This document shows positions 879 to 36,755 of a stretch of 64,000 bases of DNA, piece by piece. Origin of the DNA: Xanthostigma xanthostigma (lineage: Eukaryota > Arthropoda > Insecta > Raphidioptera > Raphidiidae); contig OY754466.1 in assembly GCA_963575645.1 (NCBI GenBank), positions 38,162,001-38,226,000 of the forward strand. Direction: 5' to 3'. Under the pieces are notes generated by a model. The model was not told where the DNA came from. It saw only the letters and a program-made list of their open reading frames with translations, and did no database searches. How positions within the stretch are numbered: the stretch's first letter is position 1; each line of letters opens with the position of its first letter. Both the position numbers and the translations under genes were made by a program.

Positions 879-1492
879 CAATAAATAAAATTATCGACCA
901 ATTTTTCAGACAATATATTAACAAAAAAATATATAATAAATTGGTCGATAATTTTATTTATTCAACACGCGTGAGTAATATGTAATTTCGGGGCCCTGCT
1001 AAATTCGGGAGAAATAATAAATTACTTCATGTTGACGCGTAGAGTGCTAATAATGAGCCGTACTGTGCGATAATGAATTTTCTGGACCAATAGGAACGCA
1101 GTGGAAGCCCAAGCGTGCAATAATGAAAAAAAACTGCACTGCTTCTGGACCAATAGGAACGTGGTAGGCGGTATTGTATATATGAAAACAGCATCGCAAT
1201 TCAACGAAAGTCATGGCCATCTTGTATGCATCGAGGACGGTGTGTACGTCAATCAATGAAGTGATTTATTATTTTTCCCTCTTTTATCAGGGCCCCGATT
1301 ACATATTGCTCGTGCTAGTTGAATAAAATATTATGTGCGACCATTGATCGAAGGAGAATATTCCACTCGCGTGTTACCGCACTCGCTAGGCTCGTGCGGC
1401 AAATTTCACGCTTATGGAATCTTCTCCTTCTCTCACTAGTCGCACAATATACTATTATTGAAGAGTTCTAATCAGACGTTAATCAAAGATTT
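879..1492 (+). mobile_element. Long copy of the short retroposon-like family M
   Basis: It is bounded by the direct repeat AAAATATGATTTTTT at 864-878 and 1493-1507. It starts CAATAAATAAAATTATCGA and ends GACGTTAATCAAAGATTT, the same ends as three much shorter insertions at 14904-14966, 24317-24360 and 36571-36641. The first ~90 bp form a hairpin (about 26-bp arms around an AT-rich loop). The interior holds another inverted-repeat element and a further pair of imperfect arms near 1318-1462. No coding capacity. The 15-bp duplication starting with an A-run right after the 3' end suggests target-primed insertion by a LINE enzyme. Confidence 0.6.
966..1315. mobile_element. Inverted-repeat element nested in 879-1492
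   Basis: The left arm (about 966-1030) and right arm (about 1255-1315) are imperfect reverse complements. Both contain the TATGTAAT ... GGGGCCCTG block and an AATAATAAAT.ACTTCA block. Between them are two copies of TTCTGGACCAATAGGAACG (near 1080 and 1143), which contain an inverted CCAAT box. No ORF above 70 codons. Probably a MITE, superfamily unresolved. Confidence 0.5.
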
Positions 1493-1604
1493 AAAATATG
1501 ATTTTTTTCTGATATTAATATTTGCAAAATATTCGCAGGAATTTTAGCGTGTGCTAAATGACTGTCAAAAATATGCGAATATTCGTTACATCCCTAATAC
1601 TGAT

Positions 1605-2514
1605 TGCAATATTTTTATGGATTCTTTGACGTAAAAACTGCATTAAAAGAATTATTTAATAGTAGGTACACAGGACCTTGCACTTAATTTGGGTCCTTAG
1701 AAAAGTTATTGTAATTTCAAACTTTGTTCTTTTTTACCCAACTGCCCCAGAAGGAAGGTAATGTTTTTCGAATGTATATGTATGTAATCGTGTGAAGCGA
1801 ATACGTAAAAGCCATCACGAAATCGAGCGCCACAGCACGCTTGAAACCTAGCAGCCAAATCTAGCAAGGAATTAGTGGCGGATTTAATATGTGGACAAAG
1901 GAGCATTAATAACTGGACCCCCGACGGAAGGCATTAAGAGCCCGTCTTGCCAAAAGTTACTTTCGATTTTTGTTATTTTTTGAATAATATTTTTGAGAGT
2001 CCACTGCAGACAGTACAAGACAGATGTGCTCTCAGGGTCTCTGTTATTTAAACACACATTGAGTGGAAATACTTATAAATGAAATAAAAAATTAAAGGAT
2101 TTATGTATGTAATGAGTCACACAATCCACTAAAATAGGAAACGGGATGAATTGAGAATCAAACAGCGGTTCACGATGGCATCAAATCAAAAAATGTTTGG
2201 TACAAGAGTTGATCTCTTTGACCCAAAGAACAATAATCCTAGATAAAAAATACAGGGTCGTATTTAAGAAAGTGTAGGTGACCTTGATATTTTGGAGACA
2301 CCTCCACCAAACGAATAAAAAACTACATCATTGTTCTTTCCCCTTGATTCCCTGTAACTTTTGTCCGAAACTTTTTTTTCGAAAACTCTTCCTCTAAGAA
2401 ATAAAAGGGTGTTCGGTTTATAAAAAACCATACTGTAGGTATATAAAATTTCATCTATGAATTGAAAATTAATAAGGTAAAAGATCCGCCATATAACTAA
2501 CGGATACGGATCTT
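1605..2514. other. Unassigned AT-rich sequence
   Basis: No gene, no clear terminal repeats and no tandem array seen. The short open frames on the minus strand (near 1706-1906 and 2264-2554) have no recognisable domain. Confidence 0.5.
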
Positions 2515-2566
2515 TCTTCTCCCTCGGATATCCGCGGATACGGATATCCGGCACATCACTAATATT
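2515..2566 (-). mobile_element. hAT-like terminus
   Basis: Read on the minus strand this begins TTAGTGATGTGCCGGATATC and continues with repeated CGGATATCC/CGGATACGG motifs. A RGGGATGTGCCGGATATCC-type end is typical of some hAT families. I could not find the matching end or a target duplication, so only one end is supported. Confidence 0.4.
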
Positions 2567-3279
2567 CAGGTAATTATCAAAATCACTATTTTACATCTTT
2601 ATCTTCTGACTTCAACAGTTCTATCTTAATTTTCACCGTACTCTAATAGTGAAAAAGTTTGGTAGTTTATGTGTTCAATATCGTAGACAATAATCTATTT
2701 ATTGACTTTTTTATCAAAGTTTATGCTGGTCTAGTGTGCAGCATCGTACAGATTGCAGGTCTGTGCTGCGCTGGTCGTGCAGGTTTATGCTTGACAAGCG
2801 TTCGTGATCTTTAACAGTATTACGAATGTCACCTTTAACTTATCTCTTTAGCTCCGTCATCTTTTTACATTCTATAGTAAAAGATTTTATGGTTTATTAA
2901 TGTTTGCATAATAACAACACTTCAATACATTTTCCAGATAATAATGTATTTAATGATGTTTTTGTACAAAAAAGAGTACAAACAAATGCCAACTATACTC
3001 ACCGAATGACAACTTAATTACGAGAGTTGTATTATATTATGTATAAAAAGACCTGACGGGTCAATGCAGACTGCAGAGTGTTCTGTTGTAGGAGGAACGA
3101 TTTCGATCTCGTACAACATTACTGCTCATTAAGGAAACATGGTATTAATACATAGAGGTACCATGGCAATCCACAGTAGTAACTGCTACTAGCCTACTAT
3201 CATCTTTCAACGTGCATATGTTATAGTCAAATCCTAGGATAGCGGAAAAGTCACGCATTTTGATCTAAGCCTGAAATAG
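2567..3279. other. Unassigned AT-rich sequence
   Basis: No coding frame, RNA gene or bounded repeat could be identified. Confidence 0.5.
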
Positions 3280-3281
3280 TA

Positions 3282-4431
3282 GGGGAGACCGGGTACAAAA
3301 GTAACATTTTGTATATTTACCTTAGTTTCTGGTTAGGTGTTATTATTTTAATGAAATTAATATAGCCATATATAAATTCCGTTCATGTTATTTACATTAG
3401 TGTCTTGATTTACCTTATTATTGTGTATTTTGTATGAATTACAGAGACTTAAAAAAAATTCGTCAGTTGTTACTTTCGACCACGCTAGCAGGTCGAAAGT
3501 AACAGAACAAAGGGGTTTGTAATGAATATGATATGACATGTTAAATCAACAAATTATTTATTAGAAAACTTAGTATTAATAACACAAATAAACATTTGCA
3601 TTTTAAATACTCAAAAATTATATATTTTATGAAAACAAATCAATATTATTAACTCCTCGTTAGAAACTATTCTTAGTTTAAGTATGTATGTATAACGAGA
3701 TCAATTATTATTATATGATAATCATTTTTTATAATCAGACTATTCAGTATCTGTCTTCTATTCAGACTCGCAATTATGGCACACATAATTTGCATCATCA
3801 TTGATGCATTCAGAATGTGCCCACATTTTACATTCGATGCATTGTATCCATTTGGTCGACTATCGCTAAAAGTTTCTAAGCAAACGAGACAAACTATCTT
3901 TGTCAGATTTATTTTCTTTGTTTTTGGCTGCCTTCTTTGACTTTATTCCTTTTCTCTTTCCTTTCGTGAATATCAACATAAAAAGATTAGGTAAGTAAAT
4001 CAATGCGGGGACAAAAGTAACGTGTTACTTGTGTACCCATAGGGCTATGTTACTTTTGTACCCCACCACATTTTTGTTAAAATATGAAAGATAACTTTGA
4101 AACGGAACGTGCTAGACAAAAACGAATTAAAACACTGTGTAATCAATCTAATCAAGTATTACTATGCAAATATACAGATTAATATAATCCTTTTAATACT
4201 AAGTAAACACTAAATAAGTTAAAGTCAAAAAACTTACTTTTGATGTGTGAAATCACGTATTCTCTTCTCACACAACTTAACAGCGCGCGGCATGCGCAAT
4301 TATTGAATACAAGTGAGAGGGGAACCACCAACTATCGCCTGAGGGCAGCGAAGTGGTTTTTTGACTATTGGATAAACCTACAGAACATTTGTTACTTTCG
4401 ACCCGCTGTTACTTTTGTACCCGGTCTCCCC
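3282..4431 (-). mobile_element. Pogo-type (Tc1/mariner superfamily) element, decayed
   Basis: The terminal inverted repeats begin GGGGAGACCGGGTACAAAAG at both ends. They are flanked by TA at 3280-3281 and 4432-4433, the target used by Tc1/mariner elements. Related motifs (TACAAAAGTAAC, GTTACTTTCGACC) recur inside, for example at 3470-3505 and 4005-4067. The minus strand encodes a lysine-rich stretch followed by a PHD-like zinc finger (3758-3905), which is the C-terminal end of many insect pogo transposases. The catalytic domain is missing, so this is an internally deleted copy of about 1.15 kb. Confidence 0.75.
3758..3905 (-). pseudogene. Pogo transposase C-terminal PHD-like zinc finger, frameshifted
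   Basis: The minus-strand translation gives a CLVC pair, then after a frameshift WIQCIECKMWAHSEC and YVCHNC before a stop. The spacing C-x2-C ... W-I-Q-C-x2-C-x2-W-A-H-x2-C ... C-x2-C is that of the cysteine-rich tail on insect Tigger/pogo-like transposases. The lysine-rich segment upstream (to about 3970) is in another frame, so there are at least two frameshifts. It cannot make a working protein. Confidence 0.7.
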
Positions 4432-4649
4432 TACTGCGTATCTTATTTTTTAGGAAATCCTATAGGAATGACTAAGAGACGCTGCACACGAGACTGAATT
4501 TGCCGCTAGATTCCTTGCTAGAGTTGACATTTAGTTTTCTAGCGCTGGTTTTCATAATTGCTAATTTGTGTGCTTGCTTCACACGAGACGTCTTTTCAAG
4601 TTTGTTTTGTGGATAGATCTGGTGCGCGCGCAGTGACAGTTCAAATATA

Positions 4650-5185
4650 AAAAACTCGGGTCGCAGTGCGAAACCCTGCCGACAATATAGTGTATTTGCT
4701 TTTATAAGCAGTGTGGCTCTATTGTATGAACTTAACTTTGTTTTTGGACAAAATAAAAAAAATTACCCTCTAATACACCCCTTAAAACAACATTTTTTTA
4801 CTTAATTTCAATGCTACATACCAATTCAACATCTGTACCAAATTATATACACCCTTCAGTATGTAAATCCATATCAGTAAACTTGCGTTTTCATAAAATT
4901 TGTAAGTCCGGTCCTGTCGGGCCGATTTTATTTAAATTTTAGCAGCACATTTCAATAATTACTAAAGGGTTAAATTTCAAATTTGAAGTGATTCTGAAAA
5001 TTTTTTCCGTATTTTTGGGCCCAAAAACATTTTTCAACCCCTAAATACCCCCCTTAAAATGGCCCGATCGGGCCCATTTTAAATAGGCTTCTTGCGATGA
5101 TGGATTCCAACATGTGGACCAAATTTCGTTTAAATCGATTAAGTCTGTCGAGAGTTATCGTGGTCACACATATATATATATATAA

Positions 5186-5238
<53 letters not shown>

Positions 5239-5368
5239 TATATAAACATTTCCAAAAATGGTGCCAAACTTCTTAGAAACTTATGAAACGTCGAGAAATT
5301 TTGGTCCGGCCCCTAGGTCCCGCCATCCGACCGACGCCAATAGTGTAAGTGCCTTATGGCAAATACAC
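4650..5368 (+). mobile_element. Family C element inserted in family E
   Basis: It starts AAAAACTCGGGTCGCAGTG and ends near GGCAAATACAC, with TA on each side (4648-4649 and 5369-5370). The uninterrupted family E copy near 40075-40090 reads through this junction and so serves as an empty site. Other copies: 19552-20060 (+), 29226-29830 (-), 37185-37690 (+), and an end fragment at 30433-30478. It contains the conserved block around GTCCGGTCCTGTCGGGCCGA and a GGGCCC-rich segment. No protein is apparent and the superfamily is unknown. Confidence 0.6.
5168..5245. repeat. (TA)n microsatellite within family C
   Basis: A nearly pure TA dinucleotide run with a few interruptions. It lies right after the GAGAGTTATCGTGGTCACA block of family C. 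At the same point in the reverse-oriented copy (near 29360-29380) the tract is mixed TA and GT, so the element carries a seed that expanded differently. Confidence 0.85.
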
Positions 5369-5851
5369 TAACAAAGAGCAAAACGTATCCGGTGTCTGAT
5401 TCTGAGCAGAATGACGCCATGTTGGTTTGTGGGCGTTTGTTCATGTCGCCCACATGACAAGATACTGTTTCCTGATTGGTTCTTGCTCGGAGCAAGCAGA
5501 GAACCTAGCAAGCAAAATAGCCCCTGTTCTATTTTTAAAATCTATCTTGTAAGCTAGCAGACGAGTTCGCAGTGATTTCCAGCCTAGTACCCAGCCTGCC
5601 GGCCAGCAGAATTCCAAGCAGTGTGCAGCGGCTTTATAGGTTGCTGCACACGAGGCTGGTTTTGCCGCTAGATTTGGCTGCTACGTTTCGAGTCAGTTTT
5701 GTTTTATATATTCATTATTCTTCTTTGATTAGCGTTAATAAGCGAGATGTTTACCTTAGTTATCTATACTCAACTGTAACTATGAGTGTCAAAATCCGAA
5801 ACACAAAACTTTTTTTCGGATTTTGACCAAAACGAGCAGTTGTTCTGTATA

Positions 5852-6077
5852 GTACACGCCACGAATCTAAAAGGCTCGGAAGTTGACAATAGCGACTGTA
5901 CTTTAAAGCAAGAAAGCGACAAGTGACAAAGGCAACGAGCGATCACGCCCAATCACCGACAATCGCACGTTCCGTGCAGATAGCTGGGAGGTGGTGGGAG
6001 TATCAACGGCTCTAAAATGTGCCTTTGCGACGCTGTTTGTGACTAACTTCCGAACCTTTTAGATTCGTGGCGCGTAC
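5852..6077. mobile_element. TA-flanked MITE, family N, copy 1
   Basis: The long terminal inverted repeats (about 36 bp) read GTACRCGCCACGAATCTAAA at each end. TA flanks at 5850-5851 and 6078-6079 fit a Tc1/mariner-type target. The interior (226 bp in all) is non-coding. A second copy lies at 58280-58591 with the interior in the opposite orientation. Confidence 0.8.
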
Positions 6078-6720
6078 TACACACTAATCGGTAAAACCTA
6101 AGACCGCCCTCTCCTCTAACTTCGTCTTCAACACATACATATTGCGTGTTATAAACAACACCATAGACAAGTGCGTACTTCTATTATTTATCTATTTTTA
6201 AAAAGGGTGACAAAAAATGCATATTCTTTTAAATTCAGGTTTTATATAAATTCATTCGAATGAAATGACAGTATGATCACAAATATCTGAAAAAAATCTG
6301 CAATGAACAACCGGAGCAATTTTTTTTTTTTTTAATTTTAAAAGGAGCGAATCGGCTTCTATGGCCATTATCGCGTAATATTTACAAATGTATATGTACA
6401 TAGGCATGATAATATCTAAGGTAAGTACATATTATATTACATATTATATCACAAATGTTAATGGTAATTAATAAGGTAAGTAGAATGAGTTGATATTTTT
6501 AAATGTCTTTGTATTTATTTATACTTTTTAGATAATTAATAGTTGACTTTATGTTGTTCTCTTCATTATTTAAAATTGTTTCCAGATCCTGTGGAAGTTC
6601 AGTATCCATCCGTTGGACATCGTATAGTGGGCAGGTCACCAAAAGGTGTGGAGCAATTTTTAAGAGTTGAAAAAAAAGGGTCCGAAAATATATGACTTCA
6701 AAAGAAATAAAATTTCTTTC
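6078..6720. other. Unassigned AT-rich sequence
   Basis: Contains a T-run near 6321 and no recognisable feature. A 94-codon minus-strand frame (6499-6783) overlaps the start of a family B repeat and has no known domain. Confidence 0.5.
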
Positions 6721-6721
6721 A

Positions 6722-7110
6722 ACACGGTAAAGTTTCTTGCGTTCAGGCGCTGTTCTGCGCTTCGAAGCAGCACATAAATCCACAATTTATAGCGTGTTAT
6801 TTAGATCGTCAACACATAAGCATCTATCGCTGTCATATGCCAGGAGTGTTCACTGAGTCTATCTCATTCAGTCAACACATTTGACGACTTTGACTCGGCG
6901 GTACGCATGTCGGTACATACAGGACACTCGGTTTATAGCAGTAGTGATTAGTGTTACAGTGTGTTTTGTAGTTGGCAACAGTGTTTCATGAACATGGATT
7001 TGATAAATCATTTTATTAGCGACTCCTCTCATTCCTAGCTCATATTTGGAAGTATCTCCGGTTGACCTTGCAGAACACCCATTTTAAATGTTCACACGCC
7101 GCCACTGCTG
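6722..7110 (+). repeat. Family B dispersed repeat, copy 1
   Basis: Shares long stretches with 18088-18750 and 25295-25955: the TTCTTGCGTTCAGGCGCT block, the TGACTCGGCGGTACG block, TAGTGATTAGTGTTACAG and the closing GCAGAACACCCATTTTAAAT. This copy lacks the 5' part (GAGCGCTGCAGAACTGC). No TIR or target duplication found. Ends are approximate. Confidence 0.6.
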
Positions 7111-8200
7111 CACTGCAGAAGTCACCGACACATAGGCGGGTGCTACAAGAGGTATTTTTATATACTATTTATAATAGTGCATAGCTCGGTAATGACTGCA
7201 TGTGTAAACATACAGGATAGACGCATTGAGCGCATCAAATAGGTAGAAATGCGTTCATTACTATAGCTACTTAAAAAGGAACGACCTTTTCACGACCGAC
7301 ATTACACCAGAGGCAGTCAACACAAACACAGCACATAAATCAACAGTTTAGATGTTTTGTTCTTAACTGAAATTGTCGAGGTCACATTACACTGGCCACA
7401 CTATTTACAATAGTGATCAATGTTTCTGGAGTGTTGATTTAATAAACAGTCAATTATTTTTTATCCAATTGGGATCCTTTATAGGGATTACTCTATCTGG
7501 CGGCGAAACTTACAACTATAATCAGGTAAACATGATTATGACTCGTACTGAGAATCGGTACTGTTAATCGTTAATTTTTTTTTATTATAATAATAAAAAG
7601 CGTTGAATAAATTAAATAAATGACTTATTATGGAACCTGCGAAGTTTTCACCTCGTGCAAACACAAATAAAAAATTAGTAAAAGGTTGTAATAGTACCAC
7701 GTCATTTTAATACAGATGATTAAATATTTTACCAAGTAGTTAATATTGGAAACTTAATGTATTAATTGAATAACATTAGGAATTTTGATAGAAAAAAAAT
7801 AAAGTTAACTTCAAACTGAAAATACATTTTGACAGATGACTATTTTTAGCTTAGGACCTTACCTGTTGCAATAAAGTAATGTTTCAATAATATGTTTGCA
7901 ACATTCATCTACACTGCATTGATATAATATCTCTATTTTAAGGTACTACTTTTATTTCATGTGGATTACTCTTTAAATCGGAAGTTTATAAATAGAAAGC
8001 ATTAAAATTCACTCAATCTGAATGCTCTGTTTCAGGAGACATTTTTCCTAATTTTATGATATGACCGACATTAAATACATATTCCTTCTTCGATGATCGG
8101 TATCAGCCTAATCACATATTGTGCTGGTACTTATCCTTTTATTGCATTTCAAAAAATTCTCAATTGCACTGTATTCTGTAGGGACTATGGGAAATTATAC
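7111..8200. other. Unassigned, with a short family B-like fragment
   Basis: A weak echo of family B (CAGCACATAAATCAACAG, later a CCACACTATTTACAATAGTGATCAAT stretch) lies at about 7320-7420. The rest is AT-rich without a supported feature. Confidence 0.45.
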
Positions 8201-8284
8201 CCCATCGTCGCCATGTTTTTAAAGCTCCGCCCATTTAATGGAACCCAATAGAGCTAAAAAAATTATGTCTATTTTTTTATGTAA

Positions 8285-8640
8285 TTTTCAATATTTTTGT
8301 ATCTTTTAGCTTGTAAAAAAATAAAAAAAAATGTTTAGCCCTATTTTAACCTCTAAATTAAAATTAGAAATATTGGTGGTAGAGTTCCGGGAGATGGGAC
8401 TTTTCTGTAGGAAATTTCCTGTACTTACAGATATCTGCAATAGTTTTTGAGGTAATCGCAAAAAACTAAACCCCTCTTTTTTCTTTTACTAACATGTTTA
8501 TATCTTTTGCAATTTTTTTGTCCCCCACTTCAATTTTTCAGAAAGTTTCTAGATGTCATTCCGAATCGAATGACACCATGATCATAATTTTCGGTGAAGT
8601 AGGATTGGAAATCATCAAAAAGGAACATGTGAACTAGACT
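8285..8640 (+). repeat. Family D repeat, single half
   Basis: Runs from an AT-rich segment (TTTTCAATATTTTTGT) through AGAAATATTGGTGGTAGA, GGAAATTTCCTG and ATGTCATTCCGAATCGAATG to about GAACATGTGAACTAG. The same sequence appears twice, as opposed arms, in the foldback at 38736-39434. This single copy shows the repeat also exists unpaired. Confidence 0.65.
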
Positions 8641-9211: not shown

Positions 9212-9282
9212 TGGGCGTAACTTGTAGGCTAAGTCATGACCTGTCAGCGCGATGAATGACTTAGACTACTAGTTACGCCAAT
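9212..9282. repeat. Short inverted repeat (mini-foldback)
   Basis: GGGCGTAACTTGTAGGCTAA on the left pairs with TTAGACTACTAGTTACGCC on the right around a loop of about 20 bp (TGACCTGTCAGCGCGATG). Total about 70 bp, which would suit a tiny MITE. No duplication assigned. Confidence 0.55.
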
Positions 9283-9309
9283 AACTATTTTAAGTTTTTA
9301 GTGAGCTTT

Positions 9310-9500: not shown

Positions 9501-9591
9501 AAATGTTTTGGGTCATAAGTCGTAAATATCCACAAATTGACTGTTTTTAGGCGCGAATAGCGTAAGCTAAAGCGCCTATATGTACTCGCTT

Positions 9592-10958: not shown

Positions 10959-12838
10959 TGACGTCACTCTAAATCCAATATGGCGGACTTCTAAAGATGG
11001 CGGAAATGCCTTCGGTAATTTTGAAGCAGATATCATCAACCGATTGGGATGAAAATTTGTATACAGGTTTAGTTTGAATGACAATGCATTGTTAGCTGTG
11101 TGACGTCACTCTAAATCAAATATGGCGAACTTCTAAAGATGGCGGACTAATTTTATTATGCTTTCCTACAATATGGGTATCAAATGAAAGGGCTTGCTGA
11201 GAATAACTCGAAAAATAAAGTGACGTCACTCTAAATCCAATATGGCGGACTTCTAAAGATGGCGGACTAATTTTATTATGCTTTCCTACAATATGGGTAT
11301 CAAATGAAAGGGCTTGCTGAGAATAACTCGAAAAATAAAGTGACGTCACTCTAAATCCAATATGGCGGACTTCTAAAGATGGCGGACTAATTTTATTATG
11401 CTTTCCTACAATATGGGTATCAAATGAAAGGGCTTGCTGAGAATAGCCCGAAAAATAAAGTGACGTCACTCTAAATCCAATATGGCGGACTTTTAAAGAT
11501 GGCGGACTAATTTTATTATGCTTTCCTACAATATGGGTATCAAATGAAAGGGCTTGCTGAGAATAACTCGAAAAATAAAGTGACGTTACACTAAATCCAA
11601 TATGGCGGACTTCTAAAGATGGCGGACTAATTTTATTATGCTTTCTTACAATATGGGTATCAAATGAAAGGGCTTGCTGGGAATAACTCGAAAAATATAG
11701 TGACGTCACTCTAATTCCAATATGGCGGACTTCTAAAGATGGCGGAAATGCCTTCGGTAATTTTGAAGCAGATATCATCAACCGATTGAGATGAAAATTT
11801 GTATACAGGTTTAGTTTGAATGACAATGCATTGTTAGCTGTGTGACGTCACTCTAAATCAAATATGGCGAACTTCTAAAGATGGCGGACTAATTTTATTA
11901 TGCTTTCCTACAATATGGGTATCAAATGAAAGGGCTTGCTGAGAATAACTCGAAAAATATAGTGACGTCACTCTAAATCCAATATGGCGGACTTCTAAAG
12001 ATGGCGGACTAATTTTATTATGCTTTCCTACAATATGGGTATCAAATAAAAGGGCTTGCTGAGAATAGCCCGAAAAATAAAGTGACGTCACTCTAAATCC
12101 AATATGGCGGACTTTTAAAGATGGCGGACTAATTTTATTATGCTTTCCTACAATATGGGTATCAAATGAAAGGGCTTGCTGAGAATAACTCGAAAAATAA
12201 AGTGACGTTACACTAAATCCAATATGGCGGACTTCTAAAGATGGCGGACTAATTTTATTATGCTTTCTTACAATATGGGTATCAAATGAAAGGGCTTGCT
12301 GGGAATAACTCGAAAAATATAGTGACGTCACTCTAATTCCAATATGGCGGACTTCTAAAGATGGCGGAAATGCCTTCGGTAATTTTGAAGCAGATATCAT
12401 CAACCGATTGAGATGAAAATTTGTATACAGGTTTAGTTTGAATGACAATGCATTGTTAGCTGTGTGACGTCACTCTATATCAAATATGGCGAACTTCTAA
12501 AGATGGCGGACTAATTTTATTATGCTTTCCTACAATATGGGTATCAAATGAAAGGGCTTGCTGAGAATAACTCGAAAAATAAAGTGACGTCACTCTAAAT
12601 CCAATATGGCGGACTTCTAAAGATGGCGGACTAATTTTATTGTGCTTTCCTACAATATGGGTATCAAATGAAAGGGCTTGCTGAGAATAACTCGAAAAAT
12701 AAAGTGACGTCAGTCTTAATCCAATATGGGTATCAAATGAAAGGGCTTGCTGAGAATAACTCGAAAAATAAAGTGACTTTAGTTTAAATCCAATATGGCG
12801 GACTTCTAAAGATGGCGGACTAAGTTTTTGACGTCAAG
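10959..12838. repeat. Two-component satellite array (120-bp and 142-bp units)
   Basis: B units of exactly 120 bp begin TGACGTCACTCTAAATCCAA at 11101, 11221, 11341, 11461 and 11581, at 11843, 11963, 12083 and 12203, and at 12465 and 12585. A units of 142 bp, which carry GCAGATATCATCAACCGATT, lie at 10959, 11701 and 12323. The pattern is A, B x5, A, B x4, A, B x2, then partial units. Private variants shared between the second and third groups (GTTACACTAAATCC, GAATAGCCCG, GACTTTTAAAG) show a recent block duplication with loss of one unit. Because 120 is a multiple of three, one minus-strand frame stays open as an artefact. Confidence 0.95.
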
Positions 12839-14738: not shown

Positions 14739-14903
14739 GCGTCTGGGGGAAGTTCTTTAAAAAACAATTACGGGGTCGTGTCGAGGCGATGGCGTTTTTT
14801 TGCGCAGTGAAAAGAGGAAGGCATCTGGGGGGAGTTCTTTAAAGGACAATTACGGGGACGTGTCGATCCGATAGCGTTTTTTGCGCAGTGAAAAGGGGAG
14901 GGC

Positions 14904-14966
14904 TTCAATAAATAAAATTATCGATAATTTTATTTATTGAAGAGTTCAGACGTTAATCAAAGATTT
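14904..14966 (+). mobile_element. 63-bp insertion of family M
   Basis: Flanked by the perfect 13-bp direct repeat AAAAGGGGAGGGC at 14891-14903 and 14967-14979. The insert starts TTCAATAAATAAAATTATCG, folds back on itself (ATCGAT centre), and ends GACGTTAATCAAAGATTT. Removing it restores the repeated module of family H (compare 14742-14830). Confidence 0.8.
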
Positions 14967-15068
14967 AAAAGGGGAGGGCGTTTGGGGGAGTTCTTTAAAA
15001 AACAATTGTGGGGTCGTGTATATAAAGTGATATAGTAAAACAGTAATTCTACACCGTGTATACTGTAT

Positions 15069-24095: not shown

Positions 24096-24099
24096 TCCA

Positions 24100-24545
24100 T
24101 ATCCTTTTATTCTATAAGTACTGAGCATTGGAATAAAATCGCAATCGAACTATTAGGGTGCAAACATATACTTCTGTCTTTTTTACGCCGTAAGCTCTGG
24201 CGTATCCGGAGACCCGGCTTAAGAAATTTCTAATTTGCCCCCTCCTGGGCCAAAAGCTGGGTACGCCCATGTTAACGTCATAGAAAAAGACAAAGTTTTT
24301 GAAACAGAGATACTTTAAATCTTTGATTAACGTCTGATTGGTTGATAATTTTATTTATTGACAGAGATACTTTATTCAGATTGAATGCAAGTACATCAAC
24401 CAATCCTATCATCAGAGAAATCAGGGAATTACATCGAAGAAAGAGACGCAGATATATTTTCGATACGCATTGTTGCGTTCTCTCACCGCACAGTGAGTAG
24501 ATAGGTAATGATTCATATAGTTAATTAATAGATATATAGTTTTTT
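24100..24545 (+). repeat. Family F dispersed repeat, copy 1, with an insertion
   Basis: Co-linear with 57780-58165: CTGAGCATWGGAATAAAAT, TTTACGCCGTAAGCTCTGG, GGGTACGCCCATGTTA, GGGAATTACATCGAAGAAAG, ACGCAGATATATTTTCGATA. The only large difference is a 57-bp gain at 24304-24373 explained by the family M insertion. No coding. Confidence 0.7.
24317..24360 (-). mobile_element. 44-bp insertion of family M
   Basis: Flanked by the 13-bp direct repeat ACAGAGATACTTT (24304-24316 and 24361-24373). The minus strand reads from CAATAAATAAAATTATCAAC to GACGTTAATCAAAGATTT. The paralogous family F copy at 57984-58004 has a single uninterrupted GCAAAGATACTTTATTCAG, an empty site. Confidence 0.85.
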
Positions 24546-27180: not shown

Positions 27181-27181
27181 G

Positions 27182-29220: not shown

Positions 29221-29225
29221 GTTTT

Positions 29226-29830
29226 TTTAGTGTATTTGCCATAAGGCACTTACACTATTGGCGTCGGTCGGATGGCGGGACCTAGGGGTCGGACCAAAAT
29301 TTCTCGACGTTTCATAACTTCCTAAGAAGTTTGGCACCATTTTTGGAAATGTTTAGGTATATATACGTGTGTGTGTGTGTGACCACGATAACTCTCGACA
29401 GACTTAATCGATTTAAACGAAATTTAGTCCAAATGTTGGAATCCATCATCGCAAGAAGCCATCGGGCCATTTAAAGGGGGGTATTTAGGGGTTGAAAAAT
29501 GGTTTTGGGCCCAAAAATACGGAAAAAATTCTCAGAATCGTTTCAAATTTGAAATTTAACCCTTTAGTTATTATTGAAATGTGCTGCTAAAATTTTAATA
29601 AAATCGGCCGGCAGGACCGAACTTACAAATTTTATGAAAACGCAAGTTTACTGATATGGATTTATATACTGAAGGGTATAATTTGGTACAGATGTTGAAT
29701 TGATATGTAGTATTGAAATTAAGTTAAAAAATGTTGTTCTAAGGGGTGTATTAAGGGGTAATTTTTTTTTGGTCCAAAAACAAAGTTAAGTTCATACAAT
29801 AGAGCCACACTGCGTATAAAAGCAAACTAG
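29226..29830 (-). mobile_element. Family C element, copy 3 (reverse)
   Basis: Starts (plus strand) TAGTGTATTTGCCATAAGGC and runs as the reverse complement of 4687-5370, ending near GTATAAAAGCAAACTA where it abuts family G. The TIR-like ends read GTGTATTTGC on each side. A mixed TA/GT tract near 29360 occupies the place of the (TA)n at 5168. A small separate end fragment lies at 30433-30478. Confidence 0.65.
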
Positions 29831-29831
29831 A

Positions 29832-30430
29832 GTGACCTGTGCGAATTATTCGCACTAAATAAGTATAATAATTCTCACTTTACAAAATTATTTTTTAAAT
29901 ATGATTGCAGGTATTCAATTCGTTTCTAATTTTGCACACTGCTTATAACGTTCTTCTTTTTGTTGTATTACAATATATGAAGCTCAGATGACAGATCGAA
30001 GAAATATTTTACTAAAATTGTTATATAGAGGCGCAAGTAGCAAAAGCGTTGAGCTAAGCCGTCAGATGGCATCATGAAGCATTGCTGTGACGTTGTTCAG
30101 CGTTGCTGCTGTTTCAAAATTAAAGCCGTCAGGTGGCAGTATGCAGTATTGTGTCTGTTGTATTACAATATGAAGGTCAGATGACAGATCGAAGTGTTGA
30201 CGTTGTTTCAAAATTAAAGCCGTCAGATGGCAGACGTTGTTCAGCGTTGCTGTATTTTAATTAATTTACAAAAACAAAAGCAATAATAAATTTTTTAGTT
30301 GTCGATGTCAATAGAGCAAGCAATTATCTGTAAAATGATATATTATTTATGTGAAGAAATTGTGAGGTTTTCTCTAAAAAGGGAGGCAAACATCTTTAAC
30401 CTTAGCGTATTAATATATTATATGATACTT
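29832..30430 (+). repeat. Family G dispersed repeat, copy 1
   Basis: Co-linear with 59777-60260: GTGACCTGTGCGAATTATTC, AAATATGATTGCAGGTATTC, TATAGAGGCGCAAGTAGC. Several degenerate GCCGTCAGATGGCAG units alternate with CAGATGACAGATCGAAG here. This copy has more of those internal units than the other, a local expansion. No coding. Confidence 0.6.
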
Positions 30431-30485
30431 ACACTATATTGTCGGCAGGGGTTCGCACTGCGACCCGAGTTTTTTATTTTCAATT

Positions 30486-30779
30486 AATAGGTGTTTACAG
30501 CATCGATGCGAAAGAACAGACTAACAAGAGAGAGAAAAGATACAAATTAAGACATGTTTATGATCTAATATTAAACTGTCTCTAAATAAATTAATATATT
30601 ATCTTATTATTGGAACTAATTAGTTAGATTGTCGACCAAATAATTATAGAAGCGGCGTATGTGATGTACTGAGCCGCGGGAAATAATATTATTGGTAATG
30701 AAATTGAAGAAAAAAACGTGAGATTCTCACCTCTTAAGAAAGGTATTTTTTATCAAATACGCATCCTGCACCGTTTCTC
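30486..30779. other. Unassigned AT-rich sequence
   Basis: No supported feature. Confidence 0.5.
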
Positions 30780-31235
30780 AGCTCTTGTCACTGCACAAGC
30801 GGCTGGTTTTGCCCTTGGATGTGCCCAAGTGTGCTGTTGGGCTGGGTTTCGTTTTACGATGCGTGTATTGAAAGTAGATTTGGTGCGCGTGAAGTGACAG
30901 TTCGAATATTGACAAAAGTAGACATTCATTGTCTCTGAACAGAACACACGCTATATGACGCCATGTTTGTTTGTGGACGTTTGCCCATGTCGTGACAAGA
31001 TACTGTTTTCTGATCGATTCTTGCTCAAAACGAGCAGAGAAACAGGCACGAAAGATAGTCCCGGTTCTAATTTTGAAGTCCATCTTGCGACGGCATTTCC
31101 ATCTTCGCAGCCAGCGCGCGAGACATCACAAGTTCCAACAGTGATTCCAGCGAAAAAACCAGCATCGTATTCGTGTGCAGCGGCCTTTATTAGACCCCTA
31201 GCTGTCTACTAAAGGTCGCTGCACACGATGCTGGT
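30780..31235 (+). mobile_element. Family E (Harbinger-like) element, diverged copy
   Basis: Shares with 39908-40493 the blocks GTGACAGTTCGAATAT, GACGCCATGTTTGTTTGTGG, GTGACAAGATACTGTTTTCT and the right end AACCAGCATCGTATTCGTGT then GTGCAGCGGCC. A second family E end in the opposite sense follows immediately (GGTCGCTGCACACGATGCTG, about 31213-31232). Confidence 0.55.
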
Positions 31236-31431
31236 TTTGTCTTTTCGTATGAAACTGCAGTCAGGGCCGTCTTTAATCTATTGGAGGCCCTGGGCACATT
31301 AGGATAATGGGGCCCCTATGACCTTGACAGAGGATTATTTTGTTAGAATAGACAAAGGAAGTAGACAAGCAGCGTTCTAGATTTATTTTTATTTCTTTAC
31401 AGTCACAATGAATAGATAATATAATATAACT

Positions 31432-32045
31432 AGCGGTCTCGTCCGGTTTCGAACGGGTGTAAAAGAATGAATGGGGAAGGGAGGAACATGAGTACACACA
31501 TTCATCTTAGTTTACCGAGATGAATGTTGTGTCCAAATTTCATGATGATCGAAGTAACCGTTCAAAAGTTTTTGTCGATAAAAAGCAGTATTTAAACTGT
31601 TCTTAACTAATAATTTTTTTTAAATTAGTTAAATAAAATTAAAATTTTAAATGTAAGCCTTAAAAGAAAGCAATGTAGAAAATAAAAAAAAAATAAAAAT
31701 ATATTGGCCCAACGTGGGGCTCGAACCCACGACCCTGATATTGACAGTCGTATGCTCTACCGATTGAGTTAGCCGACGTTGTATTCTGACAACGCTAATA
31801 TGAGTATATTTAGTTAGTGCATTTCACCTGAATAGAAGCTTATTTTTGAGATACATTTTTCAACATTTTTCATTAATGCTCCGCTCCTAATAGTCGTAGC
31901 CTGATTTTATATAACCTATAGCCTTCCTCGATAAATGAGCTATCCAACAAAAAATGTTTTTTTCAATTTGAACCAGTAGTTCCTGAGATTAGCGCGTTCA
32001 AACAAACAAACAAACAAACTCTTCAGGTTTATATATTAGTATAGA
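31432..32045 (+). mobile_element. Family A element, long form containing a tRNA-Lys-derived SINE
   Basis: Starts ACTAGCGGTCTCGTCCGG and ends TATTAGTATAGATT. The middle (about 31580-31835) holds AT-rich sequence plus a reverse-oriented tRNA-Lys-like region that the short form at 24829-25203 lacks. The same arrangement, whole and inverted, is at 38065-38652, so the SINE-bearing form was itself copied. Confidence 0.65.
31706..31781 (-). other. tRNA-Lys-derived sequence (SINE head)
   Basis: The minus strand contains CGGCTAACTCAATCGGTAGA and GGGTCGTGGGTTCGAGCCCC then CACGTTGGGCC, very close to the D-arm, T-arm and 3' end of animal tRNA-Lys. The anticodon loop reads CTGTCAA instead of CTCTTAA or CTTTTAA, and the 5' acceptor side (ACGTCGG) no longer pairs with CGTTGGGC. 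It is therefore a tRNA-derived repeat and not a working tRNA-Lys gene. Confidence 0.75.
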
Positions 32046-33090
32046 TTCACAAAAGTAACTCTTAGATCTATGTTGATTGAAGAGGTACCTACGCTTCTAG
32101 ATTTGAGATGGAAAAAACCGTTAATCACTTCTTCAAAATCAATTTTTTTAGCATATCACATTCTATGGACGTCAGCCACCAACTAGTTAAATTGAATTTT
32201 TATATATTTAAATTTACCTAACATGCTGAAATCGGAAAGCCTGATTTTCGGGCGAAAGTAGAGTAGCTTAATTGCGCATGCAAAAGCTAATCAGCAAATT
32301 GGTATTGTAATCAGTCATTACCGTTTGATTTTTTCGAAATAAATATATTTTTCGGTAATAAATATCAGTTATCTGACAGGAAATAGGGGGTCCTTATTGA
32401 TCGCGGGGCTTGACTGCAGTATCGAAAGACGTGCGCTTCAAAATTCGCGCGTTCACCCTTCCACTGCGAGAAAAGTCTAATATGACAGAAAATAAAAATG
32501 CAAATAAAGCTCTAAACATAAATAGTAAAAGAGTGCTGACACTCGGTAAGTACCACTTGAAAGCACACGCATAAAGTGCAACGCATGACAGCTATATTGC
32601 ATGTGTGTATGTATATTGTATACATTGTGGATGACTGTGGATTGTGGAAGTACAATGGAAGCTGGAGAAATGGCATACCGTGTAGGCGCGTGATTCACGC
32701 TTCACTGTTTACACACTGAAACCTACATCGTTCATTTTGTTTTACATTATATTAAAATGCAGCGTTTTTGCATTCAGGTCACCGGTCGAATATAATTAAA
32801 CATATCATCGCTTTTTTTTAGTGTGAGGAAGCAGATTTGGCCACTTTGGTTATTGTTTTATTGTAATTGAGGATATGTTGAAAAACAGCTTTACCTACTT
32901 TGAAATTTATGTGCATTATATAATAATAGAAAGGGGCATACCTTCGCTCACATTTTTTGCTACCCGCAACTAAACACATTCTAAACGAACTAGGTGAAAA
33001 CAAATCTATATCAATGTTGCCAAACTGCAACTGATCATTGAATGATGTAATTGATTAATTAAAACAGTTAATCAGTTGTAATTGAAGTTA
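32046..33090. other. Unassigned sequence
   Basis: No gene or bounded repeat. The 73-codon minus frame at 32477-32698 has no recognisable domain. Confidence 0.5.
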
Positions 33091-33094
33091 TCAA

Positions 33095-33195
33095 TGATAA
33101 TAATAATAATATATTTATTTCTTAAAAACTGCTCCCAAGAATGGGAAAAGGACAATACAAGTCAATACAATACAAATAAAATACAATACTAAAAA
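33095..33195 (-). repeat. Likely LINE 3' tail in reverse: (ATT)n and following sequence
   Basis: The minus strand shows TTGTATTG repeats, CCTTTTCCCATTCTTGGGAG, then AAATAAATATATTATTATTATTATC. A short 3' UTR ending in an (ATT)n microsatellite is typical of some insect LINE 3' ends. No coding part attached. Weak call. Confidence 0.35.
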
Positions 33196-33815
33196 AAATT
33201 CATTAATTGAATAAAAAGTTTTCTCCAATAAAAATAATTTAAGTTATAAGAGATATAAGTAGATAAAATAAAATAAAATTTGAAATGAACAGAGACAGTT
33301 GCACCCGACACTATTACTTTCCTTTTTCTCTGAAGCAACATTTGTTAACGGTGTGATCTATCAAATTACCATGTTACTATTTTTATTTAATATTTTTTCT
33401 AAAGTGAATAAATAATTTTTGCCAAAGTTTTTATGAGTTAAATTTGATTCAACAAATCTAAAATATATTTTTATCAACAAATAAAATTTATAAATCCTAC
33501 TAATTATCGTTTTTATATCCTTCAAAACTGCACACCTATATATGGTTTCGGTATTTAGAAAAAGATGCGAACTTCTCTCTTATAGGTACTCATATTGCAT
33601 GTTGTCATTACTATATATTAACTATTATAGGAAAAATAAATATAAAATAAATAATAAAACACTTGAAAATTTATATTAATCATGTTCTACCAAGTGCCGA
33701 GTGAAAAATCAGTGCAAATTATATTATAGGAAATGCTAGGTCAATTTATATATTTTAAAGCCTTTGGTTAGACTTAAGTGATTTTAAAAATTGCGTCTGT
33801 CAAAAATTACACAAT
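33196..33815. other. Unassigned AT-rich sequence
   Basis: No supported feature. Confidence 0.5.
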
Positions 33816-33963
33816 TAGGCCCCGGGCACGATACGAGCGGTGAGCGTTGAGCGGCGAGCGTCGAGCGGCACTCGAGCGTCACCAGAGCGGCGAGGGTGGT
33901 CACGATACAAGCGGCGTTAGAGCGGCAACCTTGATTTGTATCCAGCCACCAGTGTGTCGTAAT

Positions 33964-34045
33964 ATGCCTTCGAGTGAGGACCTAGTACATCTTCTGTTGT
34001 TATCGGAAAATTCAATATTGAAAAGGCGTGTAGTTCGGGGGTGCA
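33964..34045 (+). pseudogene. Start of probable Harbinger transposase ORF
   Basis: The plus-strand frame MPSSEDLVHLLLLSENS runs about 27 residues to the deletion junction near 34045. The leucine-rich opening fits the start of DDE_Tnp_4-type transposases, but it is too short to be sure. Its placement opposite the MADF ORF inside Harbinger ends supports the call. Confidence 0.4.
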
Positions 34046-34221
34046 AGCTTCCTTGTCAACGTAGTGTTCTTGAAGTTGTCTTTATCATTCCACAATGTTG
34101 AACGACACTGAACTTCACATATCAAACTTTCCATTTGAGTATCTCTAAGCTTTTTCAAAGCAACAATGTCCTTTTTCTTAAGTTTAGCCGGAGGCCCACG
34201 TGGTTCTTGCTCCTCTGACAT
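34031..34221 (-). pseudogene. N-terminal fragment of a MADF-domain protein (Harbinger second ORF)
   Basis: The minus-strand ORF starts MSEEQEPRGPPAKLKKKD and contains LICEVQCRSTLWNDKDNF then KN. The pattern LI..V...P.LW....D.F/YKN is the start of the MADF (Myb/SANT-like) DNA-binding domain found in the accessory protein of PIF/Harbinger elements. The frame reaches the deletion junction after about 55-60 residues and loses the second half of the domain. Known role of the family: DNA binding and partner of the transposase. This copy cannot function. Confidence 0.7.
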
Positions 34222-34479
34222 CTTGAACTAGACTGAAAACCGTGGGAAGAAGCATGACTCATCTGAGCGTCGAGCGTCGTACAAAAAGTAATCGGGCAGG
34301 GTTTGGCGGTGCCTTCGACGCTAAGCGGCGCCGCTCACTGTCGCTCACCGCTCACGTCTATCGTGACACCCCTCTTCAAATTTGCACGGCAACATATGGA
34401 GCCCGATTGCAGAGCGGTGGCAGAGCGATGCCGCTCTGACGCTCGACGCTCACCGCTCGTATCGTGCCCGGGGCCTAAC

Positions 34480-34771
34480 TTGACGTTTAAAAATTTAAGA
34501 CATAATATCTTTGTATCAAGGTGAGTGTATAAAAGAAAACTACGGATGTCTGAAGAATAGGTGTTGTAAATGTAAATTTGTATAAATTAAAAATAGTTCC
34601 GTAATAAAATTTAACGTGATTCAATCGAATAATAAGTAATTTCAAGAACATTTTTATCAGCGTCATTACCCTTAATTCCACTCCGATAATTGGAAAATTC
34701 GTTTTCAAAACACTGTTTAGCTCTGATTTCAAGATATTAGACGTGTTACAAATTGGCGCCCAACGTGGGGC
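34480..34771 (+). mobile_element. LTR retrotransposon remnant ending in a primer-binding site
   Basis: The 18-nt TGGCGCCCAACGTGGGGC at 34754-34771 is the exact complement of the 3' end of tRNA-Lys including CCA, the primer-binding site of gypsy-type LTR elements. The preceding ~270 bp hold a TATAAAAG (34529) and AATAAAA (about 34603) as expected of an LTR, and end ...TTACAAAT. No gag or pol follows and no second LTR was found. The left boundary is uncertain. Confidence 0.5.
34754..34771 (+). promoter_or_regulatory. tRNA-Lys primer-binding site
   Basis: 18 of 18 positions match the complement of the tRNA-Lys 3' end (acceptor stem plus CCA). It also forms a 22-nt inverted repeat with the next GCCA, so chance or a palindrome is the alternative explanation. 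Confidence 0.6.
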
Positions 34772-35392
34772 GCCATTTTCTATATTTCTATTTAATAATG
34801 TTTTCAATAAATTACACTGATACCAATAAATATACGTATTACATTGTGTTTAATTAACAGTATAGATGTAAAGATAAACTGTCACATTCTGATGTCTTTG
34901 TTAATTTAACCAGTAGGTAGCGTTTTAACGAGAACTCATCATAAGTGCATAATAATGACTGAGTAATTTACTAAATACGATTCGTATTGTATGGTCACAT
35001 AAATAACATGAATGCTCAGCAGAGTTCAAACGTTTTTATGTAAAAAAAAGGAAGTAGTGGAAACAATGATGAGATAAATACTCGTGCAGGATAGGAGATA
35101 TAAATGCAGCAATTTGTCATTCGCATGAATATAGGTGGGACCGTTATACACTAATAAATTGCATCAGTTTTATTATAAAAATATTATAGTGGATTACTGG
35201 TGCACTTGACGTTATTTTTCTAACTTTTTACATCGTTGGACAGATTGCTCTACTATTAATGGATTGGCGTTATATTTTAAAATTTTCTATCACTTTTTAA
35301 ACGAACTTCGATTAGAAATTGATAGTGTCCATTTGTGCAGTGATGTTAGATTAATACGCTACAAACTAGAGACGTATCATTCACATCATTTT
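34772..35392. other. Unassigned AT-rich sequence
   Basis: No gag/pol-like frame follows the primer-binding site. No other feature seen. Confidence 0.5.
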
Positions 35393-35466
35393 TAGGGTTC
35401 CGTACCTCAAAAGGAAAAAGGAAAATTTCTAAAATCACTTTGTTGTCCGTCTGTCTGTCAAGACTC
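35393..35466 (+). repeat. Family L repeat, left part
   Basis: TTAGGGTTCCGTACCTCAAA then ATCACTTTGTTGTCCGTCTG and TCTGTCAAGA. This is a very common lepidopteran repeat start. The same block lies at 40750-40762 plus 42025-42100, where it is split by a pogo element. Right-end pieces (TGTACGGMACMCTCGGWGCG) occur at 50138, 63457 and 42528. Confidence 0.6.
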
Positions 35467-36031
35467 TTAAAGTATTAATAGACGATCGAACTTGGTACGG
35501 GCCGACAACGGACATGGTACGGCGGATCAAGTTCACTGGTTGCAATAGACGACCGAATCTGTCAGTCTCCTTGTGTACACAGGTACGTAAATATCATGCC
35601 TCCGATTAAGCGCGCGCAAATTGCGATTGTTCTAGCGGCAACGTTAATGCCGCCACAAACAACAAAGAAGAAAAGAAAGGAGTGGGCAAAATTCTATTTG
35701 AAAGATCGCGATGAATTTAGTCATATGTGAAGTTAATAAAATCGCTTGATAGTGAAGATCATATTTTGAATAACACTCCCGAAGACTTTCTAGAGCGTTG
35801 TTACGCGCTTCTCTGTTACAATATAACTTATCTGTCAAAATTTTGCACAACGTTTTGAATTACAATGATGTCGTTATACGGATATTAGTACGAACCGGAC
35901 CAAGTACTATGTGCATCCCATCGAACCGCGCGGACACGCAGACTACTGTCTAGACGAGCAGATTTGGTACGGAGCGGACCATATCCGCTGTCCGGCCCGT
36001 ACCATGTTCGATCGTGTGTTAATACTTAAGG
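35467..36031 (+). mobile_element. Second internally deleted PIF/Harbinger element
   Basis: The ends share GACGATCGAACWTGGTACGG (reverse complement at about 35990-36016), preceded on each side by a TTAATA/TATTAA stretch that includes TTA copies. The interior encodes the N-terminal part of a Harbinger-type transposase (35596-35858). It was inserted into a family L repeat just after CTGTCTGTCAAGA. Exact outer bases are uncertain because target and TIR overlap. Confidence 0.65.
35596..35858 (+). pseudogene. Harbinger transposase N-terminal fragment, frameshifted
   Basis: The first frame (35596-35730) contains KKKRKEWAKFYLKDRDEFSHM. After a frame change the next frame (from 35730) continues KLIKSLDSEDHILNNTPEDF and ends in a stop at 35856-35858. 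The pattern W...(Y/W)L..R.EF....L...L...D......N.....F is the conserved segment ahead of the DDE domain in PIF/Harbinger transposases. The DDE catalytic core is missing. The call rests on pattern recognition. Confidence 0.65.
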
Positions 36032-36212
36032 AATCAATACCTATAATGATGACGAACCATTTTGAGAAGTGGGTCAAATTTTTATTTTTTTTAGTACTAG
36101 CTTGTGGGCCACTAAGTCAGTGACGTTACTTGTAAAGGGAGAGGGGGGATGGTTAAATACTATTTCTTTTAGTTCGAACTTTTTTTGGACGACACTCGAC
36201 GTTTTACGACCA

Positions 36213-36755
36213 TGCTGAATTCAGTGTGTTTTTTCTATAAGCATGATGATTTTGCCAAAGCTCCGAAAGATTTCGGTTTTCGTCAAAAAGTGCATTTTTT
36301 TGAAGGGGTATGCCTTGAAAAAAATGCCAAAAACGAATTCTTTAATATACATTTGAAATTGAGAATGCTTACAGAAAAAAAAAAACGCTGAATTCAATGA
36401 GCGTAAGCAAACGTCTGTATCTCCCTTAGTTTGGAAACTACGGTCATTCGAAGGTTTTGTATGATTTTCTGAAAACTATAAACGCAAATAACTTCTAAAT
36501 CAAAAGGCATACAGACGTTTGTTTGTGCTCATTGGATTCAGCGTGTTTTTTCTATAAGCATGATGATTTTATTGTCTGAAAAATTGGTCGATAATTTTAT
36601 TTATTGAAGAGTTCTAATCAGACGTTAATCAAAGATTTGAACATGATGATTTTGCCAAAGTTCCGAAAGATTTCGGTTTTCGTACAAAATCGCATTTTTT
36701 AAAGGGGTATGCCTTGAAAAAATTGAAAACATCGAATTCTTTAATGTACTATAAT
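36213..36755 (+). repeat. Local direct duplication, second copy carrying a family M insertion
   Basis: The block TGTTTTTTCTATAAGCATGATGATTTTGCC ... GGGGTATGCCTTGAAAAAA occurs at about 36220-36325 and again at about 36540-36725. The second is interrupted after GATGATTTT by the 71-bp insert described separately. Between them is TTTGCGT-type inverted sequence around CATACAGACGTTTG. Confidence 0.7.
36571..36641 (+). mobile_element. 71-bp insertion of family M
   Basis: Flanked by CATGATGATTTT at 36559-36570 and 36642-36653 (12 bp, extendable to 15 with two mismatches). The insert reads ATTGTCTGAAAAATTGGTCG to GACGTTAATCAAAGATTTGAA. The empty site is the first copy of the local duplication at 36238-36260, where AAGCATGATGATTTTGCC is uninterrupted. 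Confidence 0.85.

Follow-up and report, generated by a model that had tools for sequence, protein, structure and literature searches.

In L1 twin priming, both target strands prime reverse transcription, which leaves an inverted 5' segment; the first priming place is the poly(A) and the second is variable. Among Penelope-like elements (PLEs), the Poseidon protein of the lizard Anolis carolinensis (PAc, of the Penelope/Poseidon clade) cuts and extends both strands in vitro, with reverse transcription beginning internally at two adjacent places that bound the genomic tail and with a 5'-ATT target preference (available sections of PMC11167929). In Adineta vaga, Penelope copies have inverted pseudo-long terminal repeats (pLTRs), one of them with a 31-bp tail, and self-priming was the favoured explanation (available sections of PMC3846280). 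PLE hammerheads have been reported to be minimal, without helix III (available sections of PMC7761336). Here we analyse family M, a set of very short insertions with fixed ends in a 64,000-nucleotide stretch of the genome of Xanthostigma xanthostigma (assembly GCA_963575645.1, contig OY754466.1, positions 38,162,001 to 38,226,000; hereafter the window) and throughout the assembly. We conclude that these insertions are very probably minimal copies of a PLE, produced by two-strand target-primed reverse transcription at two adjacent internal RNA sites.

The first-pass annotation of the window had reported four such insertions with shared ends and target duplications, and all four proved to be real when the window was re-read at each coordinate. 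The 3' 18-mer occurs at exactly four sites, all at the reported positions; with up to three mismatches, shuffled windows average 0.26 matches and none of 100 reached four. The 5' 19-mer is found at 879, 14906 and 24360 (minus strand, one mismatch) and not at 36571 in that orientation; copy 4 does keep only its 3' end. Duplications of copies 1 to 4 measure 15, 13, 13 and 12 nt, and the two paralogous empty sites proposed within the window, for copies 3 and 4, were both found. Across the assembly (623 Mb, 28 contigs), the 18-mer with at most two mismatches has 20,663 matches (10,326 + 10,337), against 109 (43 + 66) for a reversed control. A chance origin of the four window matches was considered and is ruled out by the shuffles and the genome counts.

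We examined 83 copies, 79 from loci L001-L070 (first 6 Mb of contig 1) and the four in the window. A duplication scoring at least 12 within 1,450 nt upstream is present in 45 of the 83, compared with 1.2% for mispaired flanks. Duplications anchored by an arm were accepted at a score of at least 8 (99th percentile of mispaired flanks, 7.8), and that of copy 4 was set by hand, the automatic pick having matched a paralogous repeat. With all criteria combined, 56 of the 83 copies have a duplication, most commonly of 13 nt (26/56), and 12 of these 56 insertions are shorter than 80 bp. Copy length in the family ranges from 28 bp to about 3 kb.

The two ends turn out to be parts of one sequence. In longer copies the 3' part of family M is a Penelope-type pLTR, with a hammerhead-core motif, ...ATTGTCTGAAAAATTGGTCGATAATTTTATTTATTG and AAGAGTTCTAATCAGACGTTAATCAAAGATTT(GAA). 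Reverse-complemented, the 5' end (CAATAAATAAAATTATCGA...) gives the pLTR part directly before AAGAGTTC; it is an inverted pLTR piece from which the final ~32-34 nt, known in PLEs as the tail, are missing. A typical copy therefore has a head-to-head arrangement of two antisense cDNA arms that are joined mid-way. One of them, the right arm, runs as far as a point that we call site A, after GATTTGAA or up to a few nt short of this; the other, the left arm, begins at site B, TTCAATAAAT (in the RNA, ..UUAUUGAA), again with a few nt missing in some copies. The A-to-B interval of 32-34 nt is the PLE tail, whose end is marked by site A and whose start is marked by site B. In 47 of the 56 copies that have a duplication, the site-B arm lies no more than a few nt from it. 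The internal hairpin that had been pointed out as a structural feature is simply where two inverted pLTR arms meet, and is not conserved as a structure of its own. The copies in the window and their sites are the following.

864 to 878, plus strand: left target duplication of copy 1, AAAATATGATTTTTT, 15 nt, 0 mismatches
879 to 962, plus strand: left arm of copy 1 (antisense pLTR from site B, start 879) and right arm (939 to 962, ...ATTTATT)
963 to 1459, plus strand: foldback element F inside copy 1, foreign to family M, with TTATT at 958 to 962 and at 1455 to 1459
1460 to 1492, plus strand: tail of copy 1, GAAGAGTTCTAATCAGACGTTAATCAAAGATTT, ending at site A
1493 to 1507, plus strand: right target duplication of copy 1
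14891 to 14903, plus strand: left target duplication of copy 2, AAAAGGGGAGGGC
14904 to 14966, plus strand: copy 2, 63 bp, with left arm TTCAATAAATAAAATTATCGA, TCGA join, right arm and tail
14967 to 14979, plus strand: right target duplication of copy 2
24304 to 24316, minus strand: target duplication of copy 3, ACAGAGATACTTT
24317 to 24360, minus strand: copy 3, 44 bp, with left arm CAATAAATAAAATTATCAACC[AAT] and tail CAGACGTTAATCAAAGATTT
24361 to 24373, minus strand: second target duplication of copy 3
36242 to 36253, plus strand: paralogous empty site of copy 4, reading CATGATGATTTT
36559 to 36570, plus strand: left target duplication of copy 4, CATGATGATTTT
36571 to 36641, plus strand: copy 4, 71 bp, consisting of the right arm, ATTGTCTGAAAAATTGG... 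tail ...GATTTGAA, without left arm
36642 to 36653, plus strand: right target duplication of copy 4
about 57986 to 57998, plus strand: paralogous empty site of copy 3, GCAAAGATACTTT, two mismatches from the filled site

Copy 1, annotated as a single unit of 614 bp, is indeed an insertion with a duplication, but it is composed of a two-arm copy of ~117 bp and a nested foldback of ~497 bp at 963-1459. Copy 2 contains a 34-bp palindrome (14906-14939) that recurs at other loci.

The same ends bound a much longer element. In locus L092, a 14-nt duplication, GTATATGTGTGTAT, encloses 2,954 bp that comprise, in order, an inverted left arm of ~41 nt, a pLTR with tail, an intact frame of 821 aa whose ATG follows site A by ~24 nt, a 336-nt 3' part that holds the hammerhead core, and, at the extreme end, the family M pLTR and tail. 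The direct pLTR repeats (660-756 and 3490-3585 of the locus) are 97.9% identical. Locus L093 is a copy of ~3 kb in which both inverted arms are long. The YVDD and GIY-YIG segments of the L092 frame could be aligned to the protein of L071, which matches Pfam RVT_1 (2.9e-11) and GIY-YIG (1.1e-5) and is 29% identical to the L092 protein over 771 positions. The latter has 368 relatives at E<=0.001 (best 4.9e-235); among the 120 relatives listed, all but one have a precomputed RVT_1 match (counted by eye), and the organisms named are ants. In L055, a GIY-YIG piece (E 3e-4, 1.1 bits below the Pfam cut-off), the untranslated region and the tail are linked in one copy, and a Pfam scan of the reverse transcriptase (RT) pieces of this locus gave nothing useful. 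With the PLE coding piece of L055 as query, 150 scored matches were listed (815 candidates), some of them in frames of more than 800 aa; several of the listed matches are paired, and their strands and places suggest head-to-head arms. L092 belongs to this set of matches.

The marks of an endonuclease-bearing PLE are one frame combining a telomerase-like RT with a GIY-YIG domain at its C-terminus, pLTRs in direct or inverted orientation or both, a tail of 30-40 bp on one of the inverted pLTRs, and a target duplication. The family presents a single RT/GIY-YIG frame, direct and inverted pLTRs, a 32-34-nt tail on one pLTR, and a target duplication. Judged from these sequences, family M is the terminal part of a new family of this kind. 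The earlier idea of a self-standing 44-bp mobile unit is abandoned, since the same ends bound the ~3-kb PLE of L092. The annotation had itself named the contrary possibility, that the pieces are fragments of a longer element with other ends; this applies only in part, as the pieces do belong to a ~3-kb element, which has the same ends.

A second family of PLEs is represented by L071 (680-3028, minus strand), where the pLTRs are in tandem and a frame of 782 aa is intact. Its GIY-YIG is matched with the same score at many places in the genome, which suggests that this second family was recently active. An exact 22-nt match to the L071 tail lies at 36778-36799 of the window, ~124 bp to the right of copy 4.

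If each target strand chose its site independently and with the same odds, at most 50% of the copies would be expected to be mixed, i.e., to have one arm from A and one from B. We searched for A-A and B-A copies with equal arm-length requirements, and found a tail at both ends in three loci, versus 93 (43 + 50) B-A loci of subfamily I. Two of the three A-A loci have mirrored flanks, which indicates that the site itself was duplicated in inverted orientation and that nothing was inserted; at the third no duplication is clear, so that there could be at most one genuine A-A insertion. A palindromic pattern able to include B-B copies matched 156 loci, of which the 50 listed were cross-matched by hand: the start of the tail is present on one side in 38, the tail is mutated or shortened on one side in 10, and it is lacking in two, which leaves 48 of 50 with exactly one tail. 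Seen from the B side, the retrieved loci and the window contain 57 B ends that face outward, and 54 of these are accompanied by an A end no more than 1,500 nt away, a count that is biased because loci were chosen by their A end. Of the three exceptions, two are at the edge of a locus and the third is where copy 1 of the window meets F. The rule of a single tail per insertion is nearly strict. Loci L084 and L085 show inverted duplications centred on the family M tail, flanking DNA included. At L005 (1283-1487), arms of the second PLE are nested in a family M copy, and by eye one of them is tailed and the other tail-less.

Target preferences were counted in the 46 copies with exact duplications. 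AAN lies directly before the duplication in 22 of them, compared with 2 to 6 at eight offsets further upstream, and NTT directly after it in 17, compared with 4 to 10 at eight offsets further downstream; either edge fits the motif in 32. Read on the cut strand, this is the same site twice, ..TTTT^NTT, and such symmetry of the edges would fit one endonuclease cutting both strands. The pattern is similar to the 5'-ATT preference of PAc. What was reported as an A-run after GATTT is not a fixed run but a preference for A, whose frequency at each of the first four positions of the duplication is 0.49-0.60 (46 copies, both half-sites pooled), and the A-rich start of the duplication is part of the target motif. 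The run had been taken as the footprint of an L1-type endonuclease and target-primed reverse transcription. The second half of this claim agrees with our data (target-primed retroposition, fixed ends, duplications of ~13 bp, variable interior); the first does not, since the endonuclease indicated is GIY-YIG and not L1/APE, given the YVDD and GIY-YIG segments of the linked frame and given that both duplication edges, the left one more clearly, lean to the same motif. L1-type elements are marked by an APE endonuclease and a poly(A) or simple-repeat tail, whereas family M ends in GATTT(GAA) with no A tail by eye; the Pfam scan of L092 matched no family, and no search with an APE-specific model was made.

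These structures suggest how an insertion would arise. The PLE protein, probably as a dimer, would cut each target strand before NTT, with ~13 nt between the two cuts, so that 3' overhangs are left. Reverse transcription within the RNA would be primed at site A (..AUUUGAA^) by the free 3' end of one strand, and at site B (..UUAUUGAA^), ~32-34 nt upstream of A, by that of the other. Two antisense cDNAs would then grow from both sides until their free ends are joined, mostly by 1-6 nt of microhomology; filling in the overhangs would produce the target duplication, and the offset between A and B the PLE tail. Insertions of 28-80 bp would result when both cDNAs stop early, and a full element when one runs to full length, as in L092 with its left arm of ~41 nt and full-length right part. 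We infer the strand cutting, the order of priming and the action of a dimer from structures and counts; ends, duplications, the two arms, the single tail, the junction microhomology and the RT/GIY-YIG linkage are read directly from the copies. The model is sharply predictive: each insertion should have one start at A and one at B, the stagger before NTT should be ~13 nt, and joining should be by microhomology. We further lean, with some reservation, towards an obligate asymmetric reaction, in which, within one complex, site A is invariably taken by the first strand and site B by the second. If so, the tail would be the mechanical signature of a coordinated dimer and not an extension that may or may not be added. 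Insertions of every size between 28 bp and the full length would then be two microhomology-joined cDNAs, with the ultra-short copies as the limit of zero extension.

The shortest copies bear most directly on this proposal. The pattern CAATAAATN{0,30}CAGACGTTAATCAAAGATTT, 28-58 bp in total, has 138 matches in the genome (65 + 73), and its reversed control has none. Among 100 ultra-short copies listed, 56 have exact joins of the left and right arms. These share on average 2.71 nt at the join, against 0.93 in random joins of the same length range, and 46 of the 56 share at least 2 nt (23% expected); when the 24 distinct products are counted once each, the mean is 2.17, against 0.52 over distinct random products. 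One product of 28 bp, CAATAAATCAGACGTTAATCAAAGATTT, recurs within this list of 100, at five sites that are unrelated to each other. The annotation had explained differences between copies by interior loss, and ultra-short copies could indeed be two-arm copies that later lost their interior by deletion between short repeats. Microhomology at the junction is also a signature of deletion, some copies have small mutations, and our searches select copies with both ends, so that deletions removing an end go uncounted. Yet flanks were read for six ultra-short copies, of 28 or 48 bp, and four of these have exact 13-14-nt duplications (L017, L088, L089 and L091, the first three being 28-bp copies), those of the 28-bp copies L087 and L090 being imperfect by eye, and the 28-bp product is identical at its five sites. 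We regard later deletion as unlikely, and the copies are better read as two short cDNAs joined through microhomology, most simply during insertion.

It is more doubtful still that the inverted arm arose by self-priming (snap-back) of a single cDNA or antisense template, and not through priming by the other target strand. Head-to-head palindromes are frequent among the copies, and from such structures self-priming was argued for A. vaga Penelope (available sections of PMC3846280). However, the left arm of the shortest copies (CAATAAAT..., 7-30 nt) includes sequence that is missing from the right arm, which has only part of the tail, as in window copy 3 and the 28-bp copies. Snap-back copies only what the right arm contains, and thus cannot make these copies. 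Moreover, the 47 copies whose left arm starts at one fixed place beside the duplication are of very different lengths.

A highly improbable reading is that of an autonomous or SINE-like (short interspersed element) unit of 44-71 bp that moves as such through target-primed reverse transcription of the L1 type. In its favour are the cleanly duplicated targets of very short copies, the recurrent 28-bp copies and the A-rich duplication start. Against it, these ends bound a 3-kb PLE with RT and GIY-YIG, sizes are continuous and interiors differ, the recurrent forms fall at microhomologies, and there is no poly(A) by eye. The features of a SINE, a Pol III promoter and a body of more than 80 bp, have no room in copies of 28-80 bp, whose parent is a PLE. 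A foldback or miniature inverted-repeat DNA transposon, which the inverted arms and palindromes bring to mind, can be practically dismissed, since the outer ends do not form an inverted-repeat pair (one is tailed), the duplications vary around 13 nt, and the linked frame encodes an RT.

Several results weigh against the proposed PLE origin and two-strand mechanism. The Pfam scan of the L092 frame matched no family at E<=0.01, so its assignment to PLEs rests on the alignment with L071, the relatives, the YVDD and GIY-YIG segments, and the L055 piece. The hammerhead-core motif, CTGAAGAAG-stem II-GAAACGT, has 55 loose matches, some of them from other PLEs; stem II of the CTGAAGA...GAAAC core pairs by eye in most of them. 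A search of 20 loci with Rfam at its gathering threshold gave no hammerhead, and stem I seems weak on inspection by eye, which is why we take the ribozyme as a core motif only. At the thresholds used, 27 of the 83 sampled copies have no duplication, and two of the 56 duplications, of 22 and 24 nt, may be false. The strict site-B motif is not at the start in nine of the 56: by eye, the arm is clipped or mutated in L028, L031, L041 and L062 and starts further in at L060, L023 and window copy 4 are armless, and L022 and L067 are ambiguous. In predicted RNA folds of subfamilies I and II and of the second PLE, a stem closes around site B and a small hairpin has site A on its 3' side, with energies relative to shuffles (z of -2.2, 0.1 and -1.6, respectively) that are convincing only in part; the tail folds modestly better than shuffles in subfamily I and not in II. 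One of the two tail-less palindromes among the 50, L075 with an 8-bp duplication, may be a true B-B copy. Both duplication edges fit the motif in only 7 of 46 copies, and at offsets inside the duplication AA reaches 16/46 and TT 14/46, which makes the right-hand target signal modest. Short-copy counts cover subfamily I only, the 44 altered copies among the 100 listed were omitted from the microhomology count, and microhomology is also expected from later internal deletion.

Two other features of the window can be described. Element F is a foldback of ~500 bp with internal palindromes, whose 5' end, CAACACGYGTGAG, is preceded by ATT. Copies were seen in the window (963-1459, where TTATT is apparently duplicated) and at L022, L025, L026, L037 and L063. 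F lies at the family M site-B junction in the window, L025 and L026, and beside family M sequence in L022, perhaps because this site reads TTTATT, in a set of loci that was chosen for family M. The idea that F was part of a chimeric RNA and marks site B was dropped: the upstream stretch inspected is without family M sequence in L037 and L063 (two of six F copies), and TTATT at both F edges in the window copy also speaks against it. Finally, 11116-12448 (minus strand) contains two near-identical open frames made of repeats such as ISPPSLEVRHIGFRVTSLYFSSYSQQALSFDTHIVGKHNK.

Family M makes of the genome a natural library of thousands of insertion products, in which cut sites, starts of reverse transcription, cDNA lengths and the join can be read within 28-60 bp. 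This record informs how PLEs, a poorly understood group, insert, and its short copies help to separate two-strand priming from self-priming. It also carries a warning for annotation, as dispersed insertions of 28-80 bp with duplications can be scars of PLEs and not new mobile units.

Among known systems, PAc is the closest (comparisons being with the available sections of PMC11167929). Both have RT and GIY-YIG in one frame and, with family M judged from its genomic ends, two adjacent internal starts of reverse transcription bounding a 30-40-nt tail, cutting and extension on each target strand, and an ATT or AT-rich target; the pLTR has a hammerhead in PAc and a core motif of one in family M. 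They differ in that PAc starts ~111-118 nt inside the open reading frame, whereas the family M sites are upstream of the ATG (A ~24 nt before it in L092), and in that the PAc start sites were not seen to differ from strand to strand, whereas short family M copies have nearly always one A and one B; ultra-short copies are not described in those sections. The A. vaga case involves few copies and a self-priming explanation (available sections of PMC3846280), in contrast to thousands of copies, duplications whose commonest length is 13 nt, and short copies that are hard to self-prime. The second PLE (L071) resembles family M in its tandem pLTRs, hammerhead-core motif, tail, and arms of which by eye one is tailed, and differs in its protein (29% identity), pLTR and tail. 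L1 twin priming has in common the two-strand priming and the inverted 5' segment, but in family M both priming places are fixed. At the level of titles and abstracts in the open literature, with most subscription journals outside this scope, we found no report of ultra-short two-arm PLE insertions, nor do the available sections of PMC12910113, on Penelope, contain anything on them. The family M data fit a two-strand reaction of the PAc type and extend it: the type of reaction had already been proposed, the PLE family is new, and what it contributes is the number and clarity of its products, the near-strict rule of one tail per insertion, and short copies that speak against self-priming.

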